Shown one piece after another: positions 1,845-53,625 of a DNA stretch of 64,000 bases. The stretch's first letter is position 1. Each line of letters opens with the position of its first letter. The position numbers and the translations under genes were made by a program. Below the pieces are notes generated by a model. The model made no database searches. It was not told where the DNA came from and saw only the letters and a program-made list of their open reading frames with translations. Source of the stretch: Cenococcum geophilum 1.58. Its lineage: Eukaryota; Ascomycota; Dothideomycetes; Gloniales; Gloniaceae. Where the stretch lies: NCBI GenBank assembly GCA_001692895.1, contig KV748194.1, positions 1,054,001-1,118,000 on the forward strand. The letters are read 5' to 3'.

Positions 1845-4800
1845 TAGGGTTGGGTAAAATTTAATCTTATCTCGATACAATCGACGATCGACAATCGATA
1901 TAATATCTCGTATCGATTAAAGTATCGTGATATTCTCTTGGCATTCCCCACAAAATTTTCTTTTATTGAATTTACTACTTTTTTACTGCAGTATCGTACG
2001 AAACATGGCTTTAGAAGCGGATTCATCTCTTTTTAAAAATACTCCTAGCTTAATTAAGAGCTCTAGCACATAATAGGCACAGCTTCGATCTCTAGTCCAT
2101 AAATTTACTCGCCCACTATATAAGAATAAGCTAACATACGATAAAAAGAACCGAAAGCTTATATACTGCAATTAGTGCGAAAGTTACTTAGCACGATTAA
2201 CTACAAATATAAAAGGACACCTTAAGAAAGACTACGCAATCTCTGTTAACTTAAAACAGCCTTGTATAAAAGAGCAAGCATTTAGGAAGCTTTAGGAGCT
2301 TTAGGTATAAACAGCATTAGAATTTAGGACAGACGAAGTTAATTCTATAGTTCTTATAAAAGTTCTAAATAAGGAAGTTATCTAGCAAGCTCTTATTAAC
2401 TTAGTTATTATATAAAACCTTCTATTCCGGATTATAGAGTGGGAAGAGTTCTATATCTTCTATTAGGCTCTTAACCTAAAGTCGTCTAATTTAATAATAA
2501 CAATATATAAAGAAATTTCTTAGATAATTACCCATTCCTTTTAGTTACAAAAAGACATCGTACGAAGACGAGTTCAATTAGCGTTAACAAGTATTTATCT
2601 TTCTATTAATATCTAGACGTCTCTAAATAACCACCTTCTTCTCGCAGTCTGCGCCCACTTTATTAATAGCCAGGAAAACTAGATAAAAGCTCTTCTTACC
2701 CTTTATACGGTACCTAGTTATAGTAGAGCTAAATAATAAAATACTCTTCTTCTAGTCCTAGAGGAGTATAAGATTATATAAAAGCTTGGAGCTATTATCG
2801 TAGATAATTCTATAACAAATAATACTCTCTATTATACGATCTAGAAGTATCTTACTAATAACGAGGATATTACCTAGGATCCCATCTAATAACGTATCCG
2901 CTGCTAGGGATATACTATTAATCTCACCATCTAGGCCTTCCTCTTTAAAGATACTCTTAAACTTAAGGCTATTAAGTTATATAAAAGGAATAATATAAGC
3001 GGAAAGGAGCAAAGTTATAAGAAAGAGATTAAGTAGAAATAGGCTTTCTAAGCAATGGGCCCACTTAGGAAGCTTTATAATATTATAGTACACTTTTATA
3101 CCTTAGTAAGTCGTATAAAGGAGTTTAAGACTTTAGTTAGAAGATGAGTTCCACTTAATAATTATATAAGATAGAATAGCTAGTATTAAATACTAAGCGT
3201 TTTACTTAAGCACGAGTTAGGAATTAATAACTATATTAAAAGCAACTTTAATACGCTTAAGGAGGATTATATCTCGCTATAAGACTAAAAGCTTCTTTAT
3301 ACGATTTATACCTTTCTAAAGCTATTTTACTATATAATATTAGAGACACAAGGAGATTATACAACACTTAATTAAGTACTCTTTATAATAGATGTACTTA
3401 TTAAATATATAGAGAATTCTCTTATATAACTCTTCTTCTAGGTACTTTATTTAAGCTAAAGCTAACATTATATAATAGGCACTCTTTAAATTAAATAAAG
3501 CTCTTTTATTTTAAGTAAAGAATATATAGGCAAAGTTTAATAAGTACTACCAGAGAACAGATAACTCCCCTCTTTATGCCGCTATACTTATTCTTTACCC
3601 AAATTGTTATATAAAGTATATTAAGACATTTTAGAAGAAGGAGTGGTAGAAAATAATACTTTTAAAGGTTTAATGGCTCTAGGAAATATACCGAGAATTA
3701 GAGAAGCCTATTACCTCTCTTTAAACAGTATTGTATAACAAGCTATTATAAGATAAGTATAAGGAACTTAATAAGTACGATTAAATTATAAACGAATTAA
3801 ATAAAAAGGTTACTTAACTAGCAAGCTAGGATAAGTACGATAACTACTGCTCTAAAGTACCGTACGAAATTAAAGTTTCTCCACTTTAGTGGTGGTCTTA
3901 AGAACAGCAAATAAAGCGCTAGCTGCGGCTTTCACTCTTTACAAGAGAGGTACTTTTAATTCTAGCCATAAGTAATAAACTAGAGAGAGTATTTTTAGGA
4001 GGGCGTTATACGGTATTATAGGAGAGAATGCAGCTTGGATTATAGAACCTTAACAAGACGAAGTATATAAAGAGCTAGCACTAAAGTGGAATTTTAAAAG
4101 AAATATAGTAGTTGTACGGAGAAAGGTATATAAGAGATATATTATATAACACTAAGGGGTAGGGGTATAGGATATATAAATAAAATAATTATAGGTAAAA
4201 GGTAACTACTAAAGGCGTATAGGTGGCATAGGTAAATATATGCTAACTTTAAACTTAATAGATTATAACTTCAAATCCCACTAATATTGTCCTTTATTAA
4301 GAATCGGGAAATACAATTATCTAGTACACTTCCCGTCCTACTATATAAGAGATTCTTCGGCAACATTACCATACTATAAGTAAACTCTCCTTTCTATACA
4401 ATATACCTATATAACTAACTACTCTTAGAATAAGCAGGAGAGGGTAGAAGCTTTACTAGCAATTAATATAGAGGCTTAGGTGGGGGGTGGGCGATTAAAA
4501 AAGCAGGTGTAGACGGGGAGGCGGGTATTAGAGAAGCAGGTGTGGATAGGGAGGCCCTTATATATAAATGCAATTCTAATTTAGAGCCGTGAATCTCTAA
4601 ATATAATTATAAGTAACCTATATTACTTATATAAGGTAGAGAGCTAATTAAAGCTAGCCCTACAAGGCCTATACGGCGACTCTACGTCGTCTAGTAGGCC
4701 CTCGCCCCTTTACTAAGTGTTAGAGTCTCCTAGGGTTCTGTAGTAGGTGCTATGGAAATTACAAGTAGCGGGATTATAGAGCTTAATGTTCGTCGTATAA

Positions 4801-5133
4801 TAAAAATTCTTAGCCTATAGCGGCGGTAGCAGGAGCACTAGAGGGTAAGGATCGGATTGTGGAATTGGAGGATACTAAGGAATAGATAAAAGTTACTAAA
4901 TTTAATCTCCTCTCTTTTTTATTACTTTTATTTTATTTTATAGTATCTTATATAAGGAGAAGCATAAATAGAAAGGGTAAAAAGGAGATACCTAATTAGT
5001 AGGGAAGCTAAGGACGTTAGTAGATTACTCGCTTATTTAGTAGCGGATCAAAAAAGATTGATTAATATGATATGATATAATATAATCTCGCGTATTATAT
5101 TAATAACGATTGTTTAGATTTTACCTAACCCTA
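1845..5133 (+). mobile_element. hAT DNA transposon, complete ends, inserted in Gypsy family A copy 1
   Basis: Both ends are defined. The left end starts TAGGGTTGGGTAAAATTTAA and the right end is its near-complement, giving a TIR of about 19 bp with two transition mismatches. It is flanked by a perfect 8-bp duplication ATCTAACT (1837-1844 and 5134-5141), the hAT target-site length. It is 3289 bp long and carries one plus-strand transposase gene. The first ~165 b and last ~90 b keep normal CA/TG content and contain ATCGA-rich subterminal motifs, while the interior is RIP-saturated. The insertion sits in the gag/pol part of a minus-strand Gypsy relic and so is younger than that Gypsy copy. Confidence 0.9.
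2000..4150 (+). pseudogene. hAT transposase pseudogene
   Basis: Transposase of the hAT element at 1845-5133. Near 2165-2250 a BED-type zinc finger can be read (C-N-x-C spacing followed by H-L-K-K-D). Near 3960-4110 the hAT C-terminal dimerisation motif is clear: NKLERVFLGG, then ERMQLG, then a degenerate ECLKxW-like block. Many in-frame stops of the CAG/CAA to TAG/TAA or TGG to TAG kind show that RIP destroyed it. In an intact relative it would bind the TIRs and cut and paste the element through an RNase H-like catalytic core. No intact reading frame of useful length remains. Confidence 0.8.
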
Positions 5134-7807
5134 ATCTAACTATATATAGAAATCTTCCTACTTATTATTGTGCCTTTACCTATACTACTTTTAGTACAGC
5201 TGTTAGAGTATATACGGTTTATCTATAAGGAAGTATCTTCTTATTACTATATCGTAATAGCCCTTAGTATATCGTTTCTCAAACCTAGTTAGAATCCCTA
5301 GATCCTCTTCTTATTCTAGTTTAGTAAGCTACTTAGCTCTTAGTATACCTATTCTAGGCCTATTAGTAATTCTTTATACTAGTACTCTATTCCTTATACG
5401 ACCTAGTATACTAGATCTCTTATCCAGTTTCTGTTCTTGCTATAAAGTAATTTACGCCCTAAACTTCTCTATAGTTTCTTCCTTTTCGCGTCTTATAAGT
5501 AGATCCTTAAAGTCTTCTTACTTCTTAATCTTAGTATTAACTCTTTAATCTTTAGGCTGAACACTATATTCCCCTAGTAAGTCCTCTAGGTCTATATATC
5601 TGTCTCCTAATCTAGTTGCTATTTATGCTACAGATTCTCTAATCTCGTTAATAGTCCTTATTTATATCTCGAAATCTTGGTTTTATAGGATTCTTAATCC
5701 TAAGCTTACTTCTTTTTTAAGCTTAGCTCCTACCTTAGTCTAACTAGGCTTAGGTGTTCTTATCTTATCTTAAAAGTCTTAAATCTTACTTATCTTGTTT
5801 TAAGAGTCTTATACCTATAGGAAACTCTATCCTAAGCTCATTTGTATATCTTTAAATTAAGCTACTGCTCTACTTTATCGGTTTTTATCCGTTATAGGTC
5901 CTTAAGCTTACCTTATCTTATTTTAAGAATCTTAGTCATCTCTTATCTCGTCTTAAGAGTCTTAAGCCTTTGGCCTTTTGCCTTTATTAAGTGATAAAGT
6001 AGCACTAGCAGTTATCTACTTACTTAGTCTATATAAGACACTCTTCCTTTTATCTTATAAAGCAATAGATACCGTATTTAACGGTATTATAATACCCATT
6101 ACTAAACCTTACTCTATAGCGGTCTTAGTCTCTACTTCTAATATAACTTCTCTAAGGTTTATACATTTCTAGTAAACTGCCTTTATTTCCTTATTATCTA
6201 TAAATATTTCGCCTATATTAAACTTGTTGTCTTTAATATCCGATCTACGCGATAGTTTATTAGTTCCCCTATATTCTAAGGATTCTAGCTCCTATAGCTA
6301 GTAGCTTACGCTATACTTAGCGTTCTTATAAATTTAGCATGCATTATTATAACAAAACGCGAAACTTCTAATTAAATATTCTCTTATTCCTTATAGTATA
6401 CTATTATCCCTTTATACGTATATATCTTCTACTAGTCTAGTTCCCTTTATTACATAGTAACTCTAACTATCTTTATAATCCCTCGCGAAATAACCTTATT
6501 TCCCGCAATTTATATAAGCTCTATCTTTACTATAGAGTCCGCCTAAACGTCTTCTGCTACTAAGATCCCTAATTTAGCCTCTATTCCTTAGTCCTATAAT
6601 TACTAAATTCTTAACTTTTAGGTTTTTATAGTTTCTTACTCTATCTCTTATAGGCTTCTTTAGTACTACTTAGGTCTATTAGCTCCGCGCTATACTATAG
6701 TTTCTAACTTAGCTTTAGTTATTATATACTTTACGCCTTATATAACTATAAAACTCTATTCTAACCTCTTTTAGCCTATTCCCTTTAGTAGATCTAATTG
6801 TTAATCTTAATCGCTTAATCTATTAACTCTCTTAGGGTATCCGCATCTTTTATTAGAATAATCGCGTTCTAGACTTTAGCCTTAAGTCCCTATTTATACT
6901 ATGCTATAAGCGCCCTATTATTCCACTTAACTTATATCGCTAATGTCTAGAACTATATTATATACTTAATTGCTAAGGTTCGTTACGTAATATCTTAGAG
7001 TTTCCTTTTTACTATAGTTGTTGATTCTGGGTTCCTAAATATTTATATAAGTTACTCCATAAATCCTTTCTAACTTAAGAATATAAATCGCACGTCTTAG
7101 TTAGTGGTCGTTATTCCGTTCGCTTATATTTCCGTAAGGTAAAGCTTAAACCACTTAAGTGCTCTTCCTAACAAGAATAGTCCCGCATAGGCTATTCAAT
7201 CCATAGATATTAGTAGCTTTACCCCTTCTTATATAACTTTAAAGTGCATTTATATAAGAAATCCCTTAAGCTTTAATCTCTCCCCTAAAAATCTCTTAAT
7301 TAATAGTAACTTAATCTTCGCTACTCCTATCCCGTTAATCCTATTTTCTAACGTTATATTATTCTCTATTAACTAGTCAACTATCTTTTATAACTGTCCG
7401 ACCGTTACAGGTTACTATAAGTTAGTATCTGCTATACTAGTGTCGTTTCCTAATCTTAAAGTAGTTGCTGCCGTTAATAGTATTATAGTGGCTGCTTTTA
7501 GTAGCATGTTNTTTAACTTTTTNTATTTAATACTGTAACTAGGTAGTAATTATATAATAGAACCTTATAGCAGGAACTATAATAGGCTTATTATTAGGCT
7601 AGGTATATAGGTAATATAAATTAAAGTTAATAACGTAATAATAACTAGTGGAGTAGTTACCTAATAGATTAACTCTAATTATATTCTAAGAATNANTATA
7701 AGGAAGGAACTATCTAGGTAGGGACTAAAGGTCCTTAAATACACAACCGTACTCCTATAAAATTCCTCTTATACGTAATATACGTGTGCTCTATCTACTC
7801 TGTTACG

Positions 7808-7840
7808 GATTATATAGATTATATAGATTATATAGATTAC
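7808..7840. repeat. Short tandem repeat, 9-b unit GATTATATA
   Basis: About three and a half copies of GATTATATA in direct tandem, just outside the recognisable LTR of the left Gypsy relic. It sits between GTTACG and GTCACGTAAC and is probably replication slippage. Confidence 0.8.
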
Positions 7841-8281
7841 GTCACGTAACCTTAGTTACTATTCCTCGTTATATAGCTCTATCAGCTCTATTTTAGACCG
7901 TACTTATATTAACTAACTAGCTTCTTTTAACTCTTCTCTAAGTAGTTATAACATTATACTTAAAGCGTCCGTAACAATTAAAGCAGATTAATATTAGAAG
8001 TAGTGGTTAATTAAAGGCCTTTTATTAAGCAGTTTAATTAACTATATTAACTTTAATAGAGCTTTAACTACATCTTAGCTAATAAGCTTAAATATTAATC
8101 TTACTGGCTATAAGCCAGCTTAGTAAAATACATTTAATAGAGCTTTATATTTAATTAAATCTAATATAAAAATAGAGTCTCTAAAGCCCTTACCACTAAC
8201 GTTATTACTGATTTTAATATCTATAGAGGATAATTTTAGATATATTTAGACACCATTAGATAAATTAAGGTCAATTTTTAA
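7841..8281. other. Unclassified AT-rich relic
   Basis: About 440 b of RIP-type AT-rich DNA with no open frame. On the minus strand near 7990-8080 a short stretch resembles the end of a Copia RNase H region, but too weakly to assign. It carries no terminal repeats or duplication I can see. Probably a fragment of an old retroelement. Confidence 0.4.
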
Positions 8282-10267: not shown

Positions 10268-13200
10268 ATGACCTTTCTACCGCAGGATAGGGCGGCGGCT
10301 GATGCCCTCTGGGAAGACAACAAAGATACCCTACGGAAATTGTATATCTCCGAGAACATGACTCTTGACCAGGTCAGAGGCATCATGGCTGAATCCCATA
10401 ACTTCGAAGCGACGTATGAATTCCATGTCTCTGGCCTGCAGACGTAGACAAAGCAATAAGGTTACGGCCTTCTCATGTACTGACATATACGAACAGGAAT
10501 TCACAATACGAACGTAAGTTCAAACAGTGGAAGTTCCGGAAGCACTGCAAAAAGAAGGATTGGGTCACCATCAACCGAGTGATTTCGAAACGTAAAAGAG
10601 AAGGAAAGGAAAGCGAAGTCCTCATGGATGGTGCCCTACTTCCACTGAAAAAGGTTCGAAAAGAAATCAACCGTAATGAACCTACGTATTCCTTGGAGAC
10701 ATATAGCGGGGGTAGTCTCTAACTAACCTCGAATACGAAAAAGATCTAACTCAGTGTTGCAGCACCGACACCAAAAGTGCCAGAAGGGTTCATGATACGC
10801 ACGCCTTTGGCATCGCCAAGCCCCAAAATGCCAGCACGTGCTATGACCTACACATGTTCATCGGTATCTACCCAGGAAATGCTAGAAAATATGATATTAG
10901 TTCCTCGAGCGGTATCCCATCCGAGAGAATACGAAAGCACGTCGTTCCAGGAGCCAGTACCTCTCGAAGGAGAGTTTTTCTGGGGTATCGACCTTCCCTT
11001 TTTCAAGTTTGTAGCGTTTTATAATTCGCGAGGTCTGTTTTGCTAATTACACGTGTCGTCTTATACTGATCATAGTTAGTGGGCGGATCTCATATGCATA
11101 ATGGAAGACTATCAGAGCTCTATCACGAGAAACCTGAGAATTCGTCGAGAATCTTAGGCATCAAGCCTAACTCAAGCTTCCCACAAGCAGAGACAGCCTT
11201 TGAATCTATACAGACAACGGTGCTGAATTTTGTTGCCCGAACCACAGGACGCAGCGTCACCAGATGCACAAGCTTACTTTTACCAACGATGCATTCAATC
11301 ATGCCTAAAGTGGACATTGAGGGTCCCTTTTCAGTTATCCAAACCATGGAACAGCCAACAGAGCACGACAAGGCTACTGAGATGGTCAAGTTCATGTTCT
11401 TCCTGTTATCCAATAACCTGCTTGATATGAAAACCAATGCTGCAAGCGAGGCCGTCATCTCATGGCTACGAAGTAATGAAGGCACGAAGCTCATCGAGAA
11501 TCTTCCGATGATGGAGGGCGCAGGTTTTGAATCGATAGCAGAAAAGCTCTTTCAAAGCGCAATCCTTGCGAAAGACTTGCCCACGGTTAAAGCGTTGCTT
11601 CGGACGGGCCTGCAACCAGACAAGCAAGTTATTCGGAATGATTATGGCCGGAGGCTATCACCGCTTTTACTAGCTTGCGGATCGAACGATATAGAACTGG
11701 CGCGCTGCTTAATTAAAGCAGGTGCTGATGTGAACGGAGTCAATGTCACAGCAAATAATACGAAAACACCTTTGATCGCTGCCATCAGGAATTCAGACTC
11801 TGAGCTCGTGTCTCTTCTACTTGAAAAAGGAGCTCAAGCTAATCGACCAGACTCGCCGGACTTCCGACCCCTCATCGAAGCCGTAAAATTTGGAGATATT
11901 GAAACAGTTCAGCTACTCCTGTCGGCAGGTGCGGAAGTTAAACCCAAGCAAGGCTCTCATTACACCGCTTTGCATGCAGCATTTTATCATGAGGAGGGAC
12001 CGGAATTGTTAAATCAGGGGGGTGTTTTGCGGGTCGTTAAACTTCTTCTGAAAGCCGGGGTGGACATCAATTCATCACGAGGAAGAGATCCTGGGCTGGA
12101 CGGGACGACCGCCTTAGATATGGCTGCATATGCGGGTTTTCTGGATATTATCAGGCTACTCTTGTCTCGGGGTGCCGAAACGACCGATGCAACTCTGTTC
12201 TTCGCAACAAGAAGTGGCATCACTCAAGTAGTCCACTTCCTACTTGATGCCGGAGCAAATATCAATGGCAAAACAAAGTACGGAAATACTGCGCTTAAGG
12301 AAGCGGTCCGTACTGAAAACGTTCAGATGGTCGAGATTCTCCTTAGGAGAGGAGCTACCGTGAATGATTTTTATTATGGTCGCGCAATGACTCCACTTCA
12401 GGAAGCATGCTACATCGGNCATGTGGACCTAGTCAAAACTCTTTTGGAGGCCGGAGCTCTTGTCAACCCTCGCGCAGGTGAACATTACCCGTGGTACGAT
12501 GATGGTGCCGATTTTCAAGGAACGGCTCTGCAGGCCGCAGCGCATTGCGGCTCCGCGGAGTTAGTTCGCGTCCTCCTGAATGCTGGGGCAAACCCAAATG
12601 CGCTGGTACCCGAATATGGGGAGGCACCCCTCGTAGCAGCTGCTAGGAAGAAAGATGTGTGTTTAGTGACACTGCTGCTTGATGCTGGAGCGGATGTGAA
12701 TGTGAATCAAGCCCCGAGTAGAGACGAGGATAAAACTGCACTTCAGTATGCCATAGAATGGGGAAACGCCTCTATCATTGAAGAATTACTTGATGCAGGT
12801 GCGGAATCTTCTGAATCCACCGACTCTGAATCAGTGGCGCTCATTGCTGCTGTGAAGAGCGGAGACATGACTCAAATTCAAAACCTTCTGGACAAAGGGG
12901 TAGATATCAACTCCCCATCAGCGAAGTTAGATGGGAGGACAGCACTTTCCGCGGCAGCAGGTGAAAATAATTTGGACCTCGTCCGGTATCTACTCAGCAT
13001 TGGTGCTGATTCCAATGACTCTGTGGCAATCTTACTGGCTGTGGAGAAACGTGCCAGCATCGAGATCATCAGAACTCTTCTTACAGCTCGGTTGAATGCC
13101 TACAAATGCGTTGGAAAGAAATACGGAGGTGCTGCTCTCCAAAGGGCAATAAGGAATAAAGACATTGAGAGGGTCAGAGTTCTCCTGGACGTCGGTGTCG

Positions 13201-13979
13201 ACGTGAATTCTTATGTTTCTAAAGGGAATCATGGCAGCCAAGAAGGTTTCGACAATAGAATACGTTCCGGAGAAACGGCATTTGGAACAGCAGTTACGGA
13301 AGTTAAAGATGACGATCTTGATTTGGTTCGCCTCCTTTTAGCTGCTGGAGCAGATCCGAGCAGCATTGTCGTCGCATCACCTAAACAAACAGCCCTCATT
13401 CTCGCAATTTCTACCGGATCTCTTTCTCTTATTCGTCTTCTAATCGAAGCTGGTGGGTTAGTGAACGCGCCGGCGGTCAGAGGACTTCGCCGAACAGCAC
13501 TTCAGGCGGCTGTCGAGGCCGGAAATCTCAAGCTTGTTCAACTGCTTTTAAGCGTCGGTACAGATGTCAATGCGGCACCTGCGCCATATGGTGGGGTAAC
13601 TGCGCTCCAGGCTGCTGCAATAAAAGGTTACATCACAGTTGCGAACACTCTTCTTAGCCACGGAGCACATGTGAATGCAGAACCAGCAAAAGTCAACGGG
13701 CGCACTGCACTGGAGGGTGCTGCGGAATATGGGCGGATTGACATGTTACAGTTGCTCTTAGATGCTGGAGCTCAAACCGAAGGCAGCGGTCAAGCTCAAT
13801 ATGAAAATGCAGTGAACTTTGCGTCGCAAAATGGGCATGATGCTGCACGGAGGCTCCTAGAATCGCATCGTGCTCGGCAATCAGTCGTGCTTGAACAACA
13901 AATCTTGCCTGAGGGCGATTCCAACGAGCCTGACGGGTACCCAGGCCTGGATTTTGATGCAATTTTTAATTTTGACTAG
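10268..13979 (+). CDS. Clr5-domain plus ankyrin-repeat protein, four exons
   Basis: Proposed exons 10268-10413, 10497-10711, 10763-11010 and 11076-13979 keep one frame and give 1170 residues. The introns (83, 51 and 65 b) have GT...AG ends and CTAAC, TGAC or CTAAT branch-like sites. The start ATG at 10268 has an A-rich fungal context. Residues ~15-66 form a Clr5 domain (W15, TLxxV near 32-36, SQYERKFKQWKFRK across the first splice), followed by a basic SKRKREGK stretch. Residues ~360-1130 are about 21 ankyrin repeats (LLLDAGADVN-type ends). Clr5-ankyrin proteins are a large, fast-evolving fungal family; a regulatory or protein-binding role is inferred, not shown. One ambiguous base lies at 12419. 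The gene is open throughout although it sits between two RIP-destroyed blocks. The middle exons are the least certain; a shorter gene starting in exon 4 is the alternative. Confidence 0.8.
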
Positions 13980-38485: not shown

Positions 38486-38879
38486 CCCAGGGCCAGACTT
38501 GCTAATAAACAAACAGCCGTTTGCCTGTTTCCATCGTTTGTTTGTTTGTACCAAACAAACAAATAATCTAGAGGGCTTGGAATAGGCAATCAATCAATCT
38601 AAAGGGAGGCTCGTTTGTTTGGGTAGATTGGGTCGTTTGTATATATATATATATTTGGTGGAGTTTTAGGTTTTAGAGGTGAGGTTTAGGTAATTATATA
38701 ATATACGTAGGCGTGATATAATATACCTAATCGCGGAAAAGTTAATACCTACTACCATTACGTCGCCTATTATTAATATACCGCCTCCATAATATCCTAC
38801 CATCTTACTAAAGCTAACCTTACCAATCTTATAGAAGAAATATACTTAGTTGCGGACACTAAGGCCGCCGAAGCCTCTA

Positions 38880-41170
38880 ATATTAATATTACTAAAAGCA
38901 GCTTAGTATAGGACGACGACGATTATATAGGGCTTAATTGGGATAAGGTACTAAAGTACTAACGGCCTTATTCTAGCCTAAAACGTACACTAAGCTATAT
39001 TTGGGACTATGGCTGGCGACTTTAGCAGTGATATAATGCTAAATCGACCGTTTGGCTATGTAAGTACTGCTATAAGCATAATATTAAAGTAACACTTTAT
39101 AAGACTGGTAAGGCTATATCCTTAGTAAAGACATATCTTGCTAAGGATATAGAGGGCCACCGAATTAGCTAGGACGGTAAAACTATTAATTATCCTAGTC
39201 GAAAGCGCGCAGGAACTGTTTTGGAGCAAATTTAATAAAAATACCACGTTTTGCAAGTTGTCGCTAATAAGCTAATTACGGCTTATAATACTAAGACCTT
39301 TAAGAACGCGTTAATTAATTGGCTGGCGGCTAGTAACTAGCCTCTACGAGAGGTCGAGCGACCTAAATTCTATACCTTAATTAGCGCCGCTAATAAGGAC
39401 GCCGAGCGCGATCTATATAAGAACTACCAGTTAATTCGCACTAAGATCCTTACTAAATGTAAAGGCAATAAAGGTATTATAACGGAAGAACTAGGTATAT
39501 TATTGTCGCTTATTTATATATTATTTAATGGCTGGACAATAAAGGATAAGAAGAAGGCGCTTACTGGTATTTGTGTTCACTATATTAACGCTAAAGGCTA
39601 AATTCGCGACTTTCTGCTCGCCTTACTAGAGCAACTTAGCGAGTATAGTGGCTTTAACTACGCCGACACTGTTAGCAGCGTTATATTTAAATTTGGCCTT
39701 ACTAATTAAATTAGCTGGTTTATTATAGATAACGCTTATAATAATAACATGGCCGTTAATAACCTTACGATTAAACTCGGGTTTAATAGCAAGGAGCGTT
39801 ATATTTAGTGTGTCGCCCATATCTTTAACCTAGTGGCTTAATCCTGCCTTTTTGGTAAGGATAAGGACTTATTTAATAATAAGCAGAATATTAATGTAGG
39901 CAGGCGTCGCTACTACCTTTTTTTTATTAATTGCTGATAAACCTTATAGGCCGAAGAAGCCTTCCTTAATAAGTAGCGAAAGTAAGGCCCGCTCGGAACC
40001 CTTATTAATTTTATCTACTTAATCTATTTACCTTAAAAATACAAAGAGCTCTATTAATTTTAGTAAGAGGACAACGATATGCTACCGCGCGACAACTTTA
40101 TAGTCCGCGAGGTAGTTACACCTATTAAGACTTGGTGAAATAGCTACCTACTAACATTTATACGGGCCGTTGATCTATAAGGACCTATATTAGTAATAAT
40201 AGCGTATAATATTAATAAATGGAATAAGAAGATCGCGGCTATTAAAGTAGCTTAAGTATAATGGAAGAAGCTATTAAAAGCAAAGATTCTAGAGCCTCCT
40301 TTCTACGTTAAAGTCGGCGGCCTTACTGCGTACAATTGGGATATTATTAAGTAGTATATCGCGATCCTCCAGCCGCTTTATAAGGCAACTCTTAAGCTTA
40401 AAGTAAGAGGCAGAGCTAGGCGCAATGGCATAATTTAGGAGGTGCTTCCTTATATAGAGTGGCTTATAAAGATATTTAAAGAAGCTAAGGCTTAAATAGC
40501 TGAGGCGATAACGGAGGATTATCCTAATTAAGAGGCGATTAAGGATTACTATAATATTAATATTAACGCGGCGTGGAGTAAGCTTAAAAAGTACTATAAT
40601 AAGCTTAATAATACGCCTATCTACTACATAGCTGTTCTTCTACACCTGAATTTAAAGCAATTCTGCTAAAACGCCTAGGAGGATAGGCCTGAATGGATCA
40701 TTAAAGGCGACGCCTCCTTTTAGACGCTCTAGCTTTAATATAAAGGTAAAAAGCCGCGAACTAGGAAGTAGGTAGTTAAAAAGAGCCAAAGCCAGTAATT
40801 TAATATTAATGACTTTACTAGAAGCTTTATAGGTCTTAACACCACACCCTCTTCTTTCTCTTTAGCTAATAACGACGATAACAAGTATAAGGAGTGGAAG
40901 AAGCTTAACCTACTACTAAAGGAGCACCCATTGGCTTAGAACATGTTCCTCTACTAGATTATAATAATAGAGCAATATCTAAACGTTAGCCAGATGGCGC
41001 TTAATATCCTTTTAATTCTAGTAATAAGCTGCGACTGCAAATGTATTTTTAATAAGTTAGGTAATATACTGGCGCCTTAACAATTAAGAATAAAGCCAGA
41101 CGTAATAGCGGCCTTATAGTATAATCGCAGCTTTAATCGCAATGGCTTTATTAGAAAATAACCTTTCCTA
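38880..41170 (+). pseudogene. hAT transposase pseudogene (second family)
   Basis: Plus-strand transposase of the hAT at 38494-48192. Readable blocks in order: a BED-finger-like stretch near 39035-39180 (WLCKYCYKHNIK then GHRIS), the catalytic-core signature near 39520-39830 (FNGWTIKDKKKALTGICVHY, then WFIIDNAYNNNMAV, then CVAHIFNLVA), and the C-terminal dimerisation region near 40930-41165 (SQMALNILLILVISCD then RSFNRNGF). Numerous stops are of RIP type. It differs clearly from the transposase at 2000-4150. Confidence 0.82.
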
Positions 41171-41497
41171 ATAAGGAAACTATATACCGGTTCGGATTTA
41201 AGCGGAGATTATACTATTTAACTTAAATTGCTGACTTTTAGGCAGGTCCTTCGCAAAATTAGATTTTTTATTAATCCTCCACAGAACGAGATTCTTCCTC
41301 CCCCCTATATCCTATAAACCTACCGTTACACAAGCCGATTAATATACCTATAATAATAAGTTCTAAGGTTTGGCGTAATAGCTAGATTAATATTGCTGTC
41401 GTTCTAGGTAGCAATCGATTTTTGGGCAAATTCTTAATGGACGAAGTTCTTTGTCAAAACCGAAGTCACGTGACACTACCTGCAATACCAAAAGTCT

Positions 41498-41600
41498 TTG
41501 TCTTAGCATGCTTAGACCACATGGGACGCCGGATAAATCCGGCCCGATGGCACTAAACCAGTTTAGGCCATCTGTCCCTGTGTGGTCTAAGACACTTTGG
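41498..41600. repeat. Left terminal foldback of the RecQ/DUF6589 element
   Basis: The TIR is followed by CTTAGACCACATGGGAC, which is mirrored as GTCCCTGTGTGGTCTAAG ending near 41592, with a small inner palindrome CCGGATAAATCCGG in the loop. The arrangement puts two oppositely oriented copies of the TIR core at one end. Confidence 0.75.
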
Positions 41601-42099
41601 CCAACGTTTATAAAGCACGTCGCGATATCCGCATAGCTAATATTATAGATATTTACTTCTTATTCTTATGATAAGTTTAGGCAGCTTAAAAAATCTATTA
41701 ATTATATACTAGGCTCCGGCGAATCAAATGGTCTATGTAAGAAGTCTCCCCGCCTTTCTATTCCTAATATTAATTTTAAAATAGCCGTAACGCGGTTTGC
41801 TAAAGTGAATAATTAGCAATATCCGCACTAACGACGCGTTAATCTTAACTACCTACTCTCTATCCATTATATCTATAATCTAATAATTAAAACCTATTAA
41901 GATCTATCTATTATAACGTGTTTAAGTCCTCCCTGCCTTTATTTAACCCTCTATTCTTCCTCTGCTGCTTTTAAGCGCTATTTACTAATACCTCTATTAA
42001 AGCGAATAAGGTAAAGAGGTTATAAACTATAAGCTAGTTAAGTAGATTAATAAGCTAGTAGTACGCAATAGGCTAGGGATTATATTAAAATGGATTCCT

Positions 42100-44500
42100 A
42101 GCGGTCTCTACGGCTATATAGCCTGCGGAGGGAGCTACCCTAGCTTATAAGTAGCTCTTATAAACTTTAAATAAGTAAGCTAGATAAAGCTATTGCGGAG
42201 ATATATCCATACCGCGGTTATACGGAGCAGCTTAAGGCCCTAAGGGTGCTAATATTTAAGCGGCGAGATTTTATGCTTATAGTAAAGACGTCTTTTAGCA
42301 AGAGTATAATAATATAAGCACTACTATATCTTATACCTAATGCAGTTATTATTATTCTTCTTCTACTTAACGCGATTAGGTTAGAGTAAGTAAAAAAGAT
42401 TATAAAGCTACCTTATATTCGACCTATTTATATATAGGAGAAAATAATATCTACTAAGCTAATTAAGGATATCCGTACGGGCAGCTATATACATATCCTT
42501 ATCTCCCTAGAGCTTTTAGTTAGTAATAAGCTGTATAAGGTTCTAATAGACCTAATATTTCGTTCCTATGTTGCCCTTATAGTAGTTAATAAAGTACACC
42601 TACTTATTAATCAGGGAGAGACCTTCTATATAGCGTATATATAACTCTTTAAAGTACGTTTAGTCTTAGTTAATAAGCCTTAGTTTATATATACCGCAAT
42701 ACTAGACCTATCTAAGTTTCGGACTGTATATAAGCTGGCTAGGTTTAAACCTAATATATAAGTTATTAAAACCCTAATTAATTAGCCGGAGCTAAAGATT
42801 ATACGAAGGGTTATAACCGCGCTAGAGAAGAAGGACTTTTAAGCTCTTTACTTTACTATTGCTACTACTCTAGTATATTTATATACTGCTAGTAATAGTA
42901 ACTAAGGAGAAGGCGAGTAATTAAGAAGCCGCTTAATATCCGTATAGCAGATATACCGCTAACAGTTTAATTAACTTTAGCTAATTCTAAAGATAATTAT
43001 CTTCTTTAATTTTAAGGAGTGGATAGCTGCCTATTGTAATACTATTCGCAGCTAGTTAATCTATCGCGGTTATAATGCTGCTATTGCTAGAGAAGCGGTA
43101 TAGAGCTATTATATAACGCTTGCGGATATTAATAAAGACCGCTTATACGCCAAATACGCACGCCTAACGTCTTAAATTTAAATTTTTGTTATATTAGATG
43201 CAGTAGTATATAGTACAGATGTCCTGGATATCTACCGTTTGATCTAATATAGAATGCCTCGCCATAAATCCTATAATATACTAGCACAGTGGTTTGGCCA
43301 GGTAGGCTAAGGAAAAGGCCTCTTAGGCAAAGCAATCTTTATAGTTAAGAGCTGCTAGTAGGGTCCTTATAATAAATTAGGTGGTTCTAAGTATACACAA
43401 CCTTAGTGTATAGGCGATCTTCGCGTAAGCGCGCTGCGTAATAATATCCGCGGGCGATAAAACGTAGAGACTGCGGATATTATAGGCGATGCTTTATCTA
43501 TAGCGTTAGTTAGTACTAAGTAGTTAGTAAATATAAGAAGCAGGCGTAGGTTAAGCCCTAGTGGTTCTATAGTACGCCTACCTAAAGAGCTTATTATACC
43601 AACCCTACGCCTAAAGAAGCGGTTAACTAATGCGTAGTTACGTAGTAAACTGCTGTTTACCCTATGGCGGCTAGTTAATAAGAATTAGGTATGCTTATAA
43701 GTAATATAACTTATACACTATAGAGACCTATAGTCTACTGTTAGTAAAGACTTGTATTATAGTAACTATAACCTAGCAATATTTATAGATTGCGAGTACA
43801 ATATCCGCACTAGCCATAGTGCGGATATTATAAAAACCCACTAAGAGCCTATATTAAGTAATATATAGAAGTGGTTTACGTAATGGGCGGAGGCTAGGTA
43901 TTAGGATATATTATAAACGCTTATAGTTAATTATATTATACTAGATAAGCAGCTTTATTACCTCTATAATATAGGGTGGGTTCTAGATGCGGCATTATTA
44001 AGGTAAGTAATGCCTAAGTGGGATCCTAATATCCTTAGTAAGGAGCTTCCGTCCCTTATTAAGCTTTTAGTAGATAAGGAATAAAAGTAGAAATAAAAAG
44101 AAATAGGGCAACTCTTAGGTTCTTCTAGGTTAATTATATAGATATTAAAGCGGTTTTCCTAAGCGTTAGAGCAGCACGCTGCTATAGATAAGCGCTTATT
44201 ATAGGCTCTTATACGGGCTTCGCAGGTTTTAGATAGGAGATTTAAAATATTAGCGCCGTAGTAATTAGCGCCTTACTATAGCGCTAATATATCGTAGGCT
44301 AGTTAATAGTTAGCTATAAACCTCTTACTAATAACTTAGGAAGAGGATATACCTATACCTTTGCTAACTCTTAAGTCTCTAGCTCCTACTCCTTTATTAT
44401 TACCCTTATACTAGCTATTAGATATATCTATACCGCTAGTAACCCACTAGTTAGATATATCTTTATTAGTACCATAAAGGTAGTTAGCGCGATTAAATAG
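42100..44500 (+). pseudogene. RecQ-type DNA helicase pseudogene
   Basis: Superfamily-2 helicase of the RecQ type (ATP-dependent 3'-5' DNA unwinding in known relatives). From 42179 the plus frame reads a motif-0-like GYTEQLKALRVL, a Walker A remnant KTSFSKSI (~42287), HILISLELLVS (~42510), a Walker B remnant VVNKVHLL (~42585, normally DEVH), and an AILDLSKF block (~42700). Past a gap, the C-terminal domain reads TDVLDIYRLI, MPRHKSYNILAQWFGQVG (~43250-43320; RecQ normally LWQRFGRAGR). A Cys-rich stretch near 43690-43800 may be the zinc-binding part, and a long unassigned tail follows. It holds many RIP-type stops. The start is not fixed. It runs toward the DUF6589-type gene. Confidence 0.78.
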
Positions 44501-44879
44501 AGGTAAATATATACGAAGAGCACTATAGGAAATTAATGGTAACGCCAATTAGTATATAGCGGGCTAATATTAGGCGAGGTTAGTTAATATTAGGCGGGGT
44601 TAGCTAATACTAGGTAAGTTTACCTTATATCCGCTAAGCGGATATTATAACTATAGTAGCTAATATCTATTAGAATAACGCCCCTCTTTCCCCTTATACT
44701 CTATACCCCTAGTAAGCACGGCCTAGGAACTAAATAGATTAATTACTTAGGAATATATACTAGTGCTACTAACTATAGCGGATATTAAACGGTTATAGTA
44801 ATAGCTTATAGCTAATATCTTATATTACTTATTAAGTAACTTATATATAGGTTAAAGCTAGGTTTAAGTAAAGTTGGTA

Positions 44880-47254
44880 GGGAGTATAAAGCTATCTAGC
44901 TTATTATTATTATTATAGAGATTAAGCTTATTAAATATAGCGAAAAGATTACCGCCTAGCTATAAATTAAACTCATTAAGGGTAGATTAATTAAGTTGTT
45001 TAATACCTAGTTATAGTAGAGGCGGCGCTTTTATCTTTACTTACTATGCCTAACGGCGGATAATAGAACCTTTAGCAATTGCATTAGCAAGCAATTAAAT
45101 ATCCACTATAGGAGATTTAATAGTATATTAAGTAGACATCCGTTTACCAAACGTAATCTTAAACTTTATATATAGTAGCCCTATATAATTAGTTATATAA
45201 ATACTCCAGCGGAAGAGTAAGTTTAGGTTAAATATTAAATTGCCACAAGTGTGCATAAGCTGCTTTAGCTCCCTATTAAGTAGCTCGTTATTAAGATCTA
45301 TTAAGTAATAATTATTCTATTTACCGCGGATATTTATTAAACTATTTACTAAAATAGCTTGCTAGAGCTTAGGGGAATAAGTATCTATTAAAGTTAACTA
45401 GAAGAAACGTAATATCTTTAGTAAATAGTTCTTATTTCGACTACCTATAAAATAGATATAAATATAGGGGAGTACGCGGCTAAGTAGGCCAATATCCGCA
45501 AGCTTAATGGCGTGCTTAAGGACCTTATACGTTTCTACTAGTTGTAAAAAGCAGACGTGCGTTAGAAACTCTGTATTAATAGGCTTAGGAAGTATTTGTA
45601 AGGATATAGTACTGCTAGCCTATTTAAGGTAACCCTTTTACTATAGTTCCGCAGGCTAGCTAGCATAGTTAGCTGCCTAAGAGACTTCCTAACCAAAAAC
45701 CGCTGTGTGGATATCCTTAACTACTGCTAATAGACGTTACGGAGATAGGCTTTTAAGGTACCGCTTAATATCTATAGGCGACTTAGTGTTATAAGACTCC
45801 TTAATCTAAGTATGGAGTAATGCTATAATACAAGCATTAAAGCTATAGAGAATTAACTCCTCTATATAATGAAACGGCGCACGCTTAGCTAGGATATTTC
45901 TTTAACCTAGGTAGTTTATATAGGTATATAGCGTAAAGTACTCTTAGGCTAATTATTTGCTACTATAGTAATACCATATAACTATATATAGGTAATTTAG
46001 CTTTAGGTGCTAAAGAGCTAAAATAGGCAGAGCCTAACGCAGGCTATTATAGGCGGATATTAACTTAGTATATTCTTCCTAATATAACCGAATAAGCTTT
46101 ACGGTCTTTTAATTACCATAAATTAAAAATAGTTGCTCCTTAAATGCTTTATTAGTGCGTTATAAATTTATTTAATAGAGAAAAATATTATCTAGTACCT
46201 TATAGGTTTTAGATATAGAAGCCTTTCTAATTATAATAGGTTTTAGGTTAAACCTAAACGTCTATATAGCGGGTATTATATTAATAGAAGGTATATATAG
46301 ATGTTTAAACTACAGGTTTTTACTAAGTAATATATTAAGGCCTAGGTACGCCTCTATAATAGCTTTATAAATTAAAGCTGTTAAGATCTACTTTTATATC
46401 TCGTCTTATAAATTACCTAGAGCCTCTATAATATCTAAGAACTTAATTAAAATATCCGTATAAAGCATACTTTGTTAAAGCCTACTATTAGGTATACTTA
46501 TACTAAAGATAAGCTTACTAGTTATACGCGAATAGAACGTCCTAGTATCCCTAAGTGTTTAATACTAAACTTATTAGAGGTAGTTAAAGTTATTATAAAT
46601 AATAATAGTATTAGAAGCTGCACCTATTAAGCGGATTTTTACCTATATATAGGTTAGTATATACCTATACCGCGGAGATTATAGGCTAAACCTTAATTCC
46701 TAGGCTATCTACTCCTTCTGCTGGTTTAAAGTAGTATAACTATTAATTAATTTAAGCCTATAGAGTATAGAAAGTATATAGCGCTTAACACCGTTAGCTT
46801 AAAGATATATCCCTAATAGCTATAGGATATAGTTTATAGAGTTTTATAAAAGGCTAAATATAAGTGTAGAAGCTATTAAAACCGCATAGCCTTTATATAA
46901 AGAATATTTGCGTTAACCCTCTTAATATGCTATAATTATATGCTCTAGTATAGGTGTGTAAGTTTTTATAGCTTAATAGTACTGCCTAAGGTTAAGCTGC
47001 TTAATATCCGCATATTAGTTAAAGCTGCTAAATAGTAACTCTTTCTCCCTTAGCTCTTTAAGCTCTCCCTAGATAGTAAGAGTAATACTAGTACCTACTA
47101 TACCGCGCTTCTCTATCTCTTTAGTATAGATATCTAGGATATTAGCATCCTCTAGGAGTTTATTAAGGAGCTCCCTTACTCTTTTTTTCTTTAGTGCCTT
47201 ACGTAAACCTTTAGCTATTATAATTTATTTAAGCGCTAGGTCTCCTATAGACAT
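44880..47254 (-). pseudogene. DUF6589-type protein pseudogene
   Basis: Minus-strand frame starting near 47254 (MSIGDLALK...), about 790 codons to ~44880. Readable blocks: basic N-terminus (GLRKALKKKRVRELLNKLLE), IEKRGIVGTSITLT, IRLIGAASNTIIIYNNFNYL (normally YDNFN), ESYNTKSPIDIKRYLKSLSP, VETYKVLKHAIKLADIGLLS, FIGSRNKNYLLKILRFLQLT, then VNSLINIRGK followed by YYLIDLNNELLNRELKQL. The GS/KNY...E-I-L and VN-x-G...DL-x-E series is what I remember of the fungal DUF6589 family, whose biochemical function is unknown to me. It is broken by many RIP-type stops but otherwise collinear. Given its place in a TIR element, a transposase-like role is a hypothesis only; no catalytic triad was identified. Confidence 0.68.
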
Positions 47255-47810
47255 CCGCTATAGCCTAAGATAGTTAATAATTACCCAGACCTTCTCTATA
47301 GCGGATATCTTCTTAGTGGATATTGCGGATATTGCGGGTATTTTATTAACTCCTACTTTTTTATCCTCTTGGGGATCTATATAGTTTAGCAGTAGTAAGT
47401 AGGCTATTAAGGACCGCTATTAAGCTGCGGATAGCAATAGGGGAGATAACAGGGGAGACGATAGGGGAGACAATGGGGGTGGGATAAGACGGCTAATGCC
47501 CTTAGGCACTATACCCGCTGTATCTCTTAATTCTCTAGCGGTATTAGTTAATAGAAAGGGTAGTTTATTATTAAAAGCTTAAGAAGACTAGCTCCTGCTA
47601 GACGAAATAAAGGGGTTTCTTTAACGCCTTTTAGATGCGCCTATGGCTAGCAGTTGGTTTTAGAAAATCTATTAATTAGAGAGCTAATTAAGGCAATTCT
47701 AATATAGGTATTAACAGGATAATAGACGTGGCGGTTGCTTACATTAATTTCATTAAAGTTAATGGTTTACCTTATATAAATAGACCGGCTCGGCTTCCAA
47801 AAGCTTGCTA

Positions 47811-47923
47811 AAGTGGCTCAGACTAAGAAACAGATGGATCGATTGAATAGGTTAGCTTGCGGATATTCGATTATCCGCGCAGCGGATATTCATCGGTTTC
47901 TTGGTCTGAGCATGCTGAGTCAA
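47811..47923. repeat. Right terminal foldback of the RecQ/DUF6589 element
   Basis: The arm GGCTCAGACTAAGAAACAGA near 47814 is the complement of the outer arm near 47890-47915. The loop of about 50 nt carries two GCGGATATTC words (47859, 47882) and a GCGC centre. The architecture mirrors the left end although the loop sequence differs. Confidence 0.78.
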
Positions 47924-48480
47924 CAAAAGTCTATCACCAACTCTCTTAACCCTAAAATATTACCACTATACTGCGCAAGGGCCTACGGGCAACTGTTTCC
48001 TACCTTTATTATGCTTATAGAGCCTTCTACTGTCAACTATTTTATATATAAAGCTTCCAAACGAGACAAACGAGTTTAACTGTTTGTTTGAGTTGTTTCC
48101 AATCTATCAATCAATCAAACGAACGCTCTAATATAGGCAAACAATTAAACCTGAAGGCCTTCGTTTGATTTGTTTGTTTAATAGCAAGTCTGCCCAGGGC
48201 TGAACCCGCAAAACGCACAAGCGCTGGTACGATTCCGCAAGGTAAAACTTATTGGACCTTCCACTCGGCTCCCGGTGACCTTTTAAACATCAGCTATAGC
48301 TTGCGCTTTCCTAGTCACAGACGGCTGAGTTCCCATACCCTTTAAGCTTGGGGGAGAGGTGTTATTTGTCGGAAAGAGGTAAATATAACTATATTTATGC
48401 TTCTCTCTCAGAATTGGCATTACATAGTCCATCAATCTTCCCAATTCTAATTGTATAGTCTCAACTGATCATCCCACGTC

Positions 48481-49691: not shown

Positions 49692-51134
49692 TTATTCCAG
49701 GTCCACCACGAAGGAGCCTGAATGGCGGCAGAATCGAATTCCTACTTTATCGAAAGCTTCCTTCGTACCCTTTTTGAATGGACGATGGCAATCCCATATG
49801 TGCACTTCTCTCAAGTTCGGAAATTGTTGTGGACATGAAGCATGAAAACATTGAATCTGGTCTCTGTGTGGGCCGATCCATTCCGTAATGTGAATGCTTT
49901 CGAGAGATTGTGGCAGTATGTCAACGAGAACAGGTGGAGGGTAGTTGTTTCGTCCAAGTAACATGTACTCCGGGACCATAAGTCTTGACAGCTTCTCAAA
50001 ATGCCTCAGAGAGCCGATTGGATGAATGGATCTCCAATTAGGTGGTTCGAGATATCTAGCAAAATAGGCAAGGCAAATTTGCTTTAATGCATTTTGTTGA
50101 TTTTGCAAAATTGCACCAATTGGTCTGTAGTCATTGCAGCATCCCTGCCAATTTTGAATGGTAACAGACTCAAGACACTTGAAGGAGCGGAACCATTCAT
50201 GGACCCTGAAAGATACCTGTCCGTTCTTAAGAATGACGTGCTTGATTGTCAACTGTGGAGATGGAATTTTTGAGGTTTCAATCAAAAAATCACTGGAATG
50301 AAATCCTACCGACACTAGAGTCTGTAGATGAGGAAGACGTGCAAAGCACTGTAAGGGGTAAGCTACACGTGAACTCAAAGGAACCCTCATGATGACCTTT
50401 CGTAGCGTTGTGAACAGCTGGCCATAAGCGGAGCTGGGGTTGCAAGCAGTGGTAAAAAGATTATGGACGAACGATTCTTGAAAATTTGGAGTGATAGTTA
50501 TATCGAATATTTGGAGTCTTGGTAACCGAATAAGAAGCATGGTGAGCCAGGCACCGTCCACGTGTCCTGCAGTAATGGTATTTAGCTCCTTATGGATATC
50601 ACGAACAGCCCTATTTAGAAGTTGGAACTCGTGAGACGTCATCTTAGGCCTTTCAAAAATTCTCTTGATATCCACAAATGTAAGATATCTGATCTCCAAA
50701 GAAAGGTCAGGTCTGGTGAGGAGGGTTCTCAACAGAAATTGGGTGGGCCTTTCAGTAAGCTTGATATTGCGATAAAGCACCGGCGAAGCGATCCTTCCCA
50801 GAAGCTTTGAAGTCAAACAAAGAGAATGGAGACCAGTAGAATTTGTCAGGAAGCCTATACAATTAAGCAGAAGTTCCTCTGGAAGACTCAAAAGGCACAA
50901 GTCCGGATCGGCCGTTGTGTCGAATTGATGGCTGACAGAAGAGATGGTGTGTGTTATCTGATCCGAATGTGATGAAGAGGCTTCAAGAGCCTCAGGCGTA
51001 GAATTCTCTTGTGCATCGCGACTCTGAAGCGGGCCTGTCGCCGTTCCATCTGGCAAGGCAGGCTGGTGTTTCTTAGACGGAGGTTCGAGGTGGGGAGGGA
51101 ATTCCTCAAGCGGGCGTTTGCCCCCCCGCTCCAT
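49692..51134 (-). CDS. F-box protein
   Basis: Single-exon gene, 480 residues, intact. Residues ~81-125 form an F-box (LLSLPEELLLNCIGFLTNST then SLCLTSKLLGRIASPVLYRN), which in known proteins binds Skp1 and brings substrates to an SCF ubiquitin ligase. The N-terminal ~75 residues are polar and low-complexity with a basic PPSKKHQP patch. The remaining ~350 residues have scattered LPxLxxLxxxxF-type segments that suggest a degenerate leucine-rich-repeat substrate domain, as in many fungal F-box proteins of this size. No specific substrate can be inferred. The start at 51134 is the first ATG, with an in-frame ORF to a stop at 49692. The neighbouring ALO1 gene lies upstream on the same strand. Confidence 0.8.
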   Translation of the reverse strand: MERGGKRPLEEFPPHLEPPSKKHQPALPDGTATGPLQSRDAQENSTPEALEASSSHSDQITHTISSVSHQFDTTADPDLCLLSLPEELLLNCIGFLTNSTGLHSLCLTSKLLGRIASPVLYRNIKLTERPTQFLLRTLLTRPDLSLEIRYLTFVDIKRIFERPKMTSHEFQLLNRAVRDIHKELNTITAGHVDGAWLTMLLIRLPRLQIFDITITPNFQESFVHNLFTTACNPSSAYGQLFTTLRKVIMRVPLSSRVAYPLQCFARLPHLQTLVSVGFHSSDFLIETSKIPSPQLTIKHVILKNGQVSFRVHEWFRSFKCLESVTIQNWQGCCNDYRPIGAILQNQQNALKQICLAYFARYLEPPNWRSIHPIGSLRHFEKLSRLMVPEYMLLGRNNYPPPVLVDILPQSLESIHITEWIGPHRDQIQCFHASCPQQFPNLREVHIWDCHRPFKKGTKEAFDKVGIRFCRHSGSFVVDLE

Positions 51135-51837: not shown

Positions 51838-53625
51838 TTATCGAACACCCTCGTCCCCGTAAACCCCTGTCGCGTTCCCATGTTTCCGTCCTTGCAGTGC
51901 ATCGACCTCATCCTCCTCCATATCCTCCCTCAAGCTCTCAAGCAACACGCTCGCCTCCGCCTCGGCCCCAACCATCAAATCAAAGCTCTCCTCGCTCTCG
52001 CTACGCCCACTCCCCATCCCAGCCCCGCCATCCCACCACCTCGCCTGCTCCCCAACCCACTCCACACCGCCTCCCCTCTTCGGCCTCCTCACCACCTCCT
52101 TCTCCTCCAGCGCCAGCACAGGTAGTTCTGCTCTCGGCGGCAGCACAGTCCTCCGATGCCAGTCTCCCACAAACATGCCCTCCGGATCCACCTCCGCGCG
52201 CACGCGCAGATACGCCGCCATATCCTCGCCATACAAAGCGGAGAGCACCCCATGCGTGACGCCATCGGTAAAATTCTTCGCCCAATGCGGGCGCCCGCCC
52301 ATCTCGCGCATCAGCCACTCGAACGCCTGATAGTATCTCCGCAAACAGGGCGGATCCTGGCCGTACGGCCGGTAGAGCGTCGCGTTCAGATACAGCGTCG
52401 GGCCGTCGCGGACCGTGTTGTCGAGGAACGGGCGCGGGTCCGCGGCCGAGGTGTCCGAGACGCGGACCTCGATCGGCGAGTGGACGAAGACGCCTAAGGG
52501 GTCGAACGGGATGCGGGCCGTGTCGGTGTCGCCGTTGATCCAGGCGGTGAGGCGTGTGAGGGCTTCGGGGCCTTTGTGCAGCGGGAGCGCCCACTCGTTC
52601 ACGAACTGCGAGTAGAGACAGTTCATCAGAAGGCCTGAGCGGAGCTCCTCGACGGCGGAGGTGGTGAAGCCATCGTGAAAGCCGTACTGCATGCCGAAGA
52701 CGAACCATTCGATGGATGGGAGGAGGCGCGGGACGTACTGCGCTGCCCAGAGCAGGGTGTGGTAGGTGTGGTAGCCGATGCTGCCGCCGTACCAGTTGTG
52801 TTTAGGCTGGCAGAAGGGTTTTGTGGTTTTCTCGGCACGCCAGACGACCGCGCGGAGCGTGTAGGGCAGCCACCACACGCGCGTGTATTCGGTCTGGGTC
52901 CAGAGAGTGCGCTCCCAGTTTCTGAGAACGGTGGAGGCCGCGAGGATCGTTTGGAACCATTCGATGTTGCAGTTCTCGATCATCTCAAACTCTACCTCCA
53001 CGATGATTCCCAGTGCGCCCAAACTAACCAGCGCGGCGCGAAAGAGCTCCTCATTCTGCTCCTTTGAGCACTTCACTGCCTGGCCGTTCGCCAGCACAAT
53101 CCGCAAACTCTTCACCGACTGCGAAAGCAAGCCATGAGATAGCGAGCTGCCATGCGTCGCAGTCGCAATAGCACCCGCAATCGACTGATGATCTATACTT
53201 CCCAAATTACGCATCGTAAGCCCATACTCTTTTGCCTTGTTATTCAACTGATGCAACCTGATACCCGCCTGCACCAGCAAAGTCTTCTTCTCCGCATCAA
53301 CCGTCAAAACGCTATTGAAATCATCCAGATTCACCATCCATGCACTTGTGCAAGTGAGATCTGACGGCGAATGTCCGGATCCTACTACGACGACGCGCCT
53401 GCGCAGCCGCCGCGCGAGCGTCACGACCTTCTGGACTTCAGCGAGCGTCTGCGGCCGGATGTACAGCTCGGGCCGCGAGTGGAAGGTCCGCGCCCATGTG
53501 TGGTGGGTGTGTGTCTGCGAGGCGCGGAAGGGGACCGTGGGATCGAGCTTCTCAAGCTCGATGGAGAAGCGCGACGCCATATTTGTCGGGGGGAGCGGGG
53601 TGAGGTTCATATTCGGGTTTCGCAA
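51838..53625 (-). CDS. ALO1: D-arabinono-1,4-lactone oxidase
   Basis: FAD enzyme that oxidises D-arabinono-1,4-lactone to D-erythroascorbate with oxygen, the last step of fungal erythroascorbate synthesis; in yeast it is a mitochondrial membrane enzyme. The frame gives 595 residues. The vanillyl-alcohol-oxidase-type FAD domain spans ~50-220, with VGSGHSPSDLTCT at 81-93, where His85 is the expected covalent flavin attachment site, and GAIATATHGSS further on. The ALO domain follows, with GGRPHWAK (HWAK 447-450) near its end. The C-terminal ~100 residues (acidic, Gly/Arg/Glu-rich) extend past the ~526-aa yeast protein. In-frame Met codons at 1, 6 and 16 are possible starts; Met16 (MASRFSIELEKLDP) fits relatives best. 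No introns, no damage. Confidence 0.93.
   Translation of the reverse strand: MRNPNMNLTPLPPTNMASRFSIELEKLDPTVPFRASQTHTHHTWARTFHSRPELYIRPQTLAEVQKVVTLARRLRRRVVVVGSGHSPSDLTCTSAWMVNLDDFNSVLTVDAEKKTLLVQAGIRLHQLNNKAKEYGLTMRNLGSIDHQSIAGAIATATHGSSLSHGLLSQSVKSLRIVLANGQAVKCSKEQNEELFRAALVSLGALGIIVEVEFEMIENCNIEWFQTILAASTVLRNWERTLWTQTEYTRVWWLPYTLRAVVWRAEKTTKPFCQPKHNWYGGSIGYHTYHTLLWAAQYVPRLLPSIEWFVFGMQYGFHDGFTTSAVEELRSGLLMNCLYSQFVNEWALPLHKGPEALTRLTAWINGDTDTARIPFDPLGVFVHSPIEVRVSDTSAADPRPFLDNTVRDGPTLYLNATLYRPYGQDPPCLRRYYQAFEWLMREMGGRPHWAKNFTDGVTHGVLSALYGEDMAAYLRVRAEVDPEGMFVGDWHRRTVLPPRAELPVLALEEKEVVRRPKRGGGVEWVGEQARWWDGGAGMGSGRSESEESFDLMVGAEAEASVLLESLREDMEEDEVDALQGRKHGNATGVYGDEGVR

Follow-up and report, generated by a model that had tools for sequence, protein, structure and literature searches.

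The window analysed here, a 64,000-nucleotide stretch of fungal DNA, holds two badly damaged genes lying between inverted repeats, one resembling a RecQ helicase and the other carrying the Pfam domain DUF6589, and the locus raises the question of whether these genes belong to a single mobile element and, if so, to which kind. Our data support the view that they are parts of one discrete transposable unit of 6,426 bp (Table 1), and we consider it likely that this unit represents a dead AcademH-type DNA transposon with two genes.

The initial annotation had proposed that the element has precise ends and a 9-bp target duplication, and both hold to the nucleotide: exact borders could be drawn, the two copies of CAAAAGTCT agree at 9/9 positions, and the terminal inverted repeats (TIRs) next to them, TTGTCTTAGCATGCTTAGACCA and TTGACTCAGCATGCTCAGACCA, agree at 19/22. 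Two of the three TIR mismatches are C/T differences in a CpA context, a change like that left by repeat-induced point mutation (RIP), and the third is T/A. Since the core of the left TIR is almost palindromic (18 bp with 2 mismatches), the element ends are also alike in direct orientation, with 5 mismatches compared to 3 when inverted. When the entire window was searched for 22-bp TIRs (at most 3 mismatches, 3–15 kb apart) bordered by a 9-bp repeat, the ends of the element were the sole pair, and 20 windows simulated under a Markov-1 model contained 0, although the scan, whose criteria were taken from the observed pair, shows rarity and yields no unbiased probability. A blastn comparison within the window revealed no further copy.

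The element was also said to sit in an independent hAT transposon with intact ends, and this, too, proved correct, given the perfect 8-bp duplication and the well-matched TIRs of the latter. Subtracting the insert and one 9-bp copy from the hAT leaves 3,264 bp. A match to Dimer_Tnp_hAT at about 40973–41122 on the plus strand (E=3.2e-4) fell 0.5 bit short of the curated cut-off (20.9 compared to 21.4 bits) and lies ahead of the 6,426-bp insertion; this position, together with the nesting, indicates that the hAT was there first. The exact TIRs, the 9-bp duplication and the nesting in the hAT thus uphold the earlier claim of a discrete unit rather than adjacent host genes.

Table 1 Features of the element and of the transposon around it, in positions of the window.
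Feature	Position	Strand	Remarks
DNA transposon unit	41498-47923		6,426 bp; 22-bp TIRs and 9-bp target duplication
9-bp duplication CAAAAGTCT, left copy	41489-41497	.	identical to right copy
9-bp duplication CAAAAGTCT, right copy	47924-47932	.	9/9 identical to left copy
Left TIR	41498-41519	+	22 bp; inside largely palindromic
Right TIR	47902-47923	-	22 bp
RecQ-like helicase frame	42003-44704 (outer limits approximate)	+	many stops; collinear with RecQ over 42228-42752
DUF6589 protein reading frame	44900-47698 (limits approximate)	-	broken by stops
DUF6589 domain	45245-46291	-	PF20231, E=3e-36, 125.4 bits (cut-off 27)
GCGGATATT palindrome example	43800-43829	.	two inverted copies, 30 bp
Enclosing hAT	38494-48192	+	TIRs 21/22; perfect 8-bp duplication; sub-cut-off Dimer_Tnp_hAT match
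8-bp duplication of hAT, CCCAGGGC	left 38486-38493, right 48193-48200	.	copies identical

Within these borders, the more clearly recognised of the two genes is the one on the minus strand, for which the claim of a DUF6589-like product was confirmed by a clear Pfam match to PF20231. The match covers profile positions 56–371 of 410 and residues 470–818 of the frame, which is convergent with the RecQ-like frame. When the six frames of the element were searched against Pfam end to end, no family besides PF20231 rose above its cut-off; a sub-threshold match to Emaravirus ABC_C (E=0.044) was taken as chance. NCBIfam and PADLOC returned nothing for the DUF6589 frame or the helicase frame. Among solved structures, a 433-residue piece of the DUF6589 frame had no match and the whole frame had one (E=0.094), which we judged to be chance, while an AlphaFold2 model of the read-through protein was useless (mean pLDDT 34.5). 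A literature search for DUF6589 gave no mention of it, and one for PF20231 gave a single paper, on optics and unrelated; no direct link from DUF6589 to the Academ transposase emerged. A 12-bp tandem repeat (3.8 copies, 47435–47479) lies near the N-terminal end of the frame.

The helicase gene is the less clear of the two, and its recognition depended on a profile built from 80 bacterial RecQ loci (the best 80 of 590 confirmed, with 80/80 used). This profile was run against 324 overlapping read-through chunks that together represent the complete window in its six frames. With stops read as Q, the helicase frame ranked first of the 324 (E=2.7e-5, next 0.27), the match being restricted to the first helicase lobe; it again ranked first with stops read as X (E=0.002, next 5.2). 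In phmmer searches of the PDB, all 13 sequences retrieved with the helicase frame (stops as X) were RECQ5 or BLM (best E=0.11), and 25 of the 26 retrieved with the helicase core (Q/W at stops) were WRN, RECQ5 or BLM (best E=0.0035). Wrong-frame controls matched PDB entries as well, a single odorant receptor (E=0.12) and SUMO in five sequences (best SUMO-2, E=0.0064). E-values from the PDB thus do not settle the RecQ identity by themselves, and it is the profile ranking that bears the claim. The sole Pfam match of the helicase core was to DltX (E=0.22), which we rejected.

Motif-like stretches of a second helicase lobe were read by eye only in this heavily damaged gene, and a search with that part gave 4 matches, none of them a RecQ helicase. 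Similarity at the sequence level therefore supports a RecQ-like assignment in the first helicase lobe only, and the earlier claim of an encoded RecQ-like helicase survives for that lobe, the second being undetected. A Pfam search of both products, as the initial annotation had suggested, recovered DUF6589 (PF20231) and no helicase family for the RecQ-like frame, whether its stops were read as X or as Q/W.

The damage to both genes has a characteristic form. TA/AT and (CA+TG)/(AC+GT) are the standard indices of RIP, and in the element they stand at 1.67 and 0.45, respectively, whereas the right flank has 0.73 and 1.24; the dinucleotide bias of the element is a strong RIP pattern. Its six frames contain from 149 to 263 stops each and no open frame, and the present copy is unable to make either the RecQ-like or the DUF6589 protein.

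RIP-type bias marks large parts of the window, most of them A+T-rich (1–8000, 14000–36000 and 38494–48192, the last being the hAT with its insert), in alternation with stretches of normal composition. An open frame of 966 residues, rich in ankyrin repeats (11079–13979; Ank_2, E=1.2e-96), ends where RIP-type sequence starts. The unmutated right flank holds a gene for D-arabinono-1,4-lactone oxidase (51838–53625; ALO, E=3.4e-79), and another open frame (49692–51134) matches LRR_15 (E=7.9e-7) and has an F-box-like start by eye.

Beyond its two genes, the element is marked by a dispersed 9-bp motif, GCGGATATT / AATATCCGC, present in 15 exact copies (10 on one strand, 5 on the other) that lie within the two reading frames as well as close to each end of the element. 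Some are paired, as in the palindrome listed in Table 1 and a tandem at 47318–47342. Only 2 copies of GCGGATATT were found in the other 57.6 kb of the window (at 17683 and 27856), and they are also the only ones in its other RIP-altered parts. Under a third-order Markov model of its sequence, the element is expected to hold 0.83 copies, with a maximum of 4 in 200 simulations, a comparison that overstates rarity somewhat because the motif was chosen after the sequence had been seen. As the motif is without CpA or TpG, RIP would spare it. A literature search with the letters of GCGGATATT turned up no connected work among the matches listed. Six viral contigs contain two tandem copies of the motif; with just 2–3 copies each and open stretches of 411–1011 codons, we took these contigs to be unrelated. 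Candidate explanations for the motif are a binding site, a short dispersed repeat and the remnant of a minisatellite that spread. We find it rather improbable that it marks internal sites for loading the transposase or helicase, with DUF6589 forming its own transposase family repeatedly paired with RecQ-like helicases and with the whole body of the element in use, not its ends alone.

Relatives were sought in collections of viruses, plasmids, phages and prokaryotes. None of the pattern matches among viral contigs was confirmed, whether for the DUF6589 frame (0 of 32), the DUF6589 core (0 of 14) or the helicase core (0 of 13); the same was true (0 of 30) of an extra query, a further DUF6589 fragment whose identity Pfam supported (E=5.8e-18). 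The TIR pattern had 0 matches in viral contigs and 0 in prokaryotic genome contigs, and tblastn gave no match for the helicase frame among plasmids or for the DUF6589 frame among phages. A check of one bacterial genome and 14 controls detected no PF20231, which is not proof of its absence there.

AcademH, within the Academ superfamily, was reportedly first described by Kojima in 2020 (Mob DNA 11:15). Passages of later work give AcademH duplications as 9 or 10 bp and those of AcademX as 3 or 4 bp, a difference related to the encoded helicase and nuclease (PMC10045372), and describe AcademH as low-copy elements of Basidiomycota, Ascomycota and Mucoromycota (PMC10799480). The CAAAAGTCT duplication, identical at 9/9 positions, falls within the 9–10-bp range given for AcademH (passages of PMC10045372), and the helicase expected of such an element is seen here through the first lobe of RecQ only; the 9-bp duplication and the helicase together fit AcademH. 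In another study, Academ elements were sought with a profile from an earlier paper (passages of PMC8290104). Passages of PMC12210899, PMC8290104, PMC9970103, PMC12730594 and PMC10294476 contain nothing on DUF6589 or the anatomy of AcademH.

If DUF6589 were instead a transposase of its own, non-Academ kind that had been paired with RecQ independently, the element would represent a distinct DNA transposon superfamily. The Pfam annotation of PF20231 as of unknown function agrees with such a reading, as does the lack of any link between DUF6589 and Academ in the structure comparisons and the AlphaFold2 model, but the coincidence of 9-bp duplication, helicase and fungal host with what passages of the AcademH reports describe speaks against it, and we regard it as unlikely. 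The duplications of Mutator-like elements (MULEs) are about 9 bp long. The length of CAAAAGTCT would also suit a MULE, and a MULE or an element of another known superfamily might have captured RecQ and DUF6589 genes; against this, the Pfam search of the six frames revealed no transposase family, whether of MULEs or of another kind, and we hold the idea to be very improbable, even with that negative weakened by the RIP damage.

The RecQ helicase itself recalls Kolobok transposons, among which KolobokH carries RecQ and is known only from fungi, and in one Kolobok from a red alga RecQ is encoded on the complementary strand, an arrangement like that of the present element (passages of PMC9587614). 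The target duplication contradicts a KolobokH element or relative, since Kolobok duplications are TTAA (passages of the same paper) and that found here is the 9-bp CAAAAGTCT; moreover, RecQ lies downstream of the transposase domain in KolobokH (passages of PMC9587614), and no Kolobok family appeared in the Pfam search, a negative again weakened by gene damage. We consider a Kolobok origin extremely improbable. That two host genes, for example a subtelomeric RecQ helicase of the kind common in fungi (passages of PMC4522978 and PMC5576322), are merely adjacent by chance merits next to no credence. The borders contradict it: exact TIRs with their 9-bp duplication lie within a hAT, and simulation of 20 windows yielded 0 pairs of this kind.

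Returning to the AcademH-type reading, we infer that the DUF6589 protein is the putative transposase of the element. It would be of the DDD/E type and would bind the 22-bp ends, excise the element and then cut the target with a 9-bp stagger, and gap filling by the host at the staggered cut would produce the 9-bp duplication. The RecQ-like helicase may assist this process by opening either the element ends or the intermediate of transposition. Once inserted into the hAT, the copy lost its activity, most likely through RIP. The initial annotation had suggested a helicase-assisted class of DNA transposon: a unit with both genes is indeed present, but that the class had gone unrecognised is doubtful, as AcademH and KolobokH are already described in fungi, and the element is probably a new example of a known transposon type, not a new class. 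If the role given to DUF6589 holds, a domain listed by Pfam as of unknown function would gain a likely function as a transposase, and some fungal RecQ-like gene copies would be explained as part of the machinery of transposons instead of as genes for host repair; the gain would be an aid to annotation, the transposon type itself probably not being new.

Compared with known systems, the element shares a RecQ-like helicase within repeats with the RecQ-like genes and repeats of fungal subtelomeres, which are also treated in passages of PMC4994206 and PMC3585121, but those are tied to chromosome ends, and the passages do not mention a DUF6589 partner. In Colletotrichum higginsianum, one family of subtelomeric RecQ-like genes also contains motifs of the HTH and DDE types, attributed by the authors of that study to an inserted DNA-TIR transposon (passages of PMC5576322). 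KolobokH is likewise a fungal DNA transposon with a RecQ helicase, though it differs in its TTAA duplication and in having RecQ downstream of the transposase domain, where our element has a 9-bp duplication and convergent genes (passages of PMC9587614). AcademH, compared here by the descriptions given in passages of citing papers (PMC10045372 and PMC10799480), resembles the element in its helicase, its 9–10-bp duplication and its fungal host.
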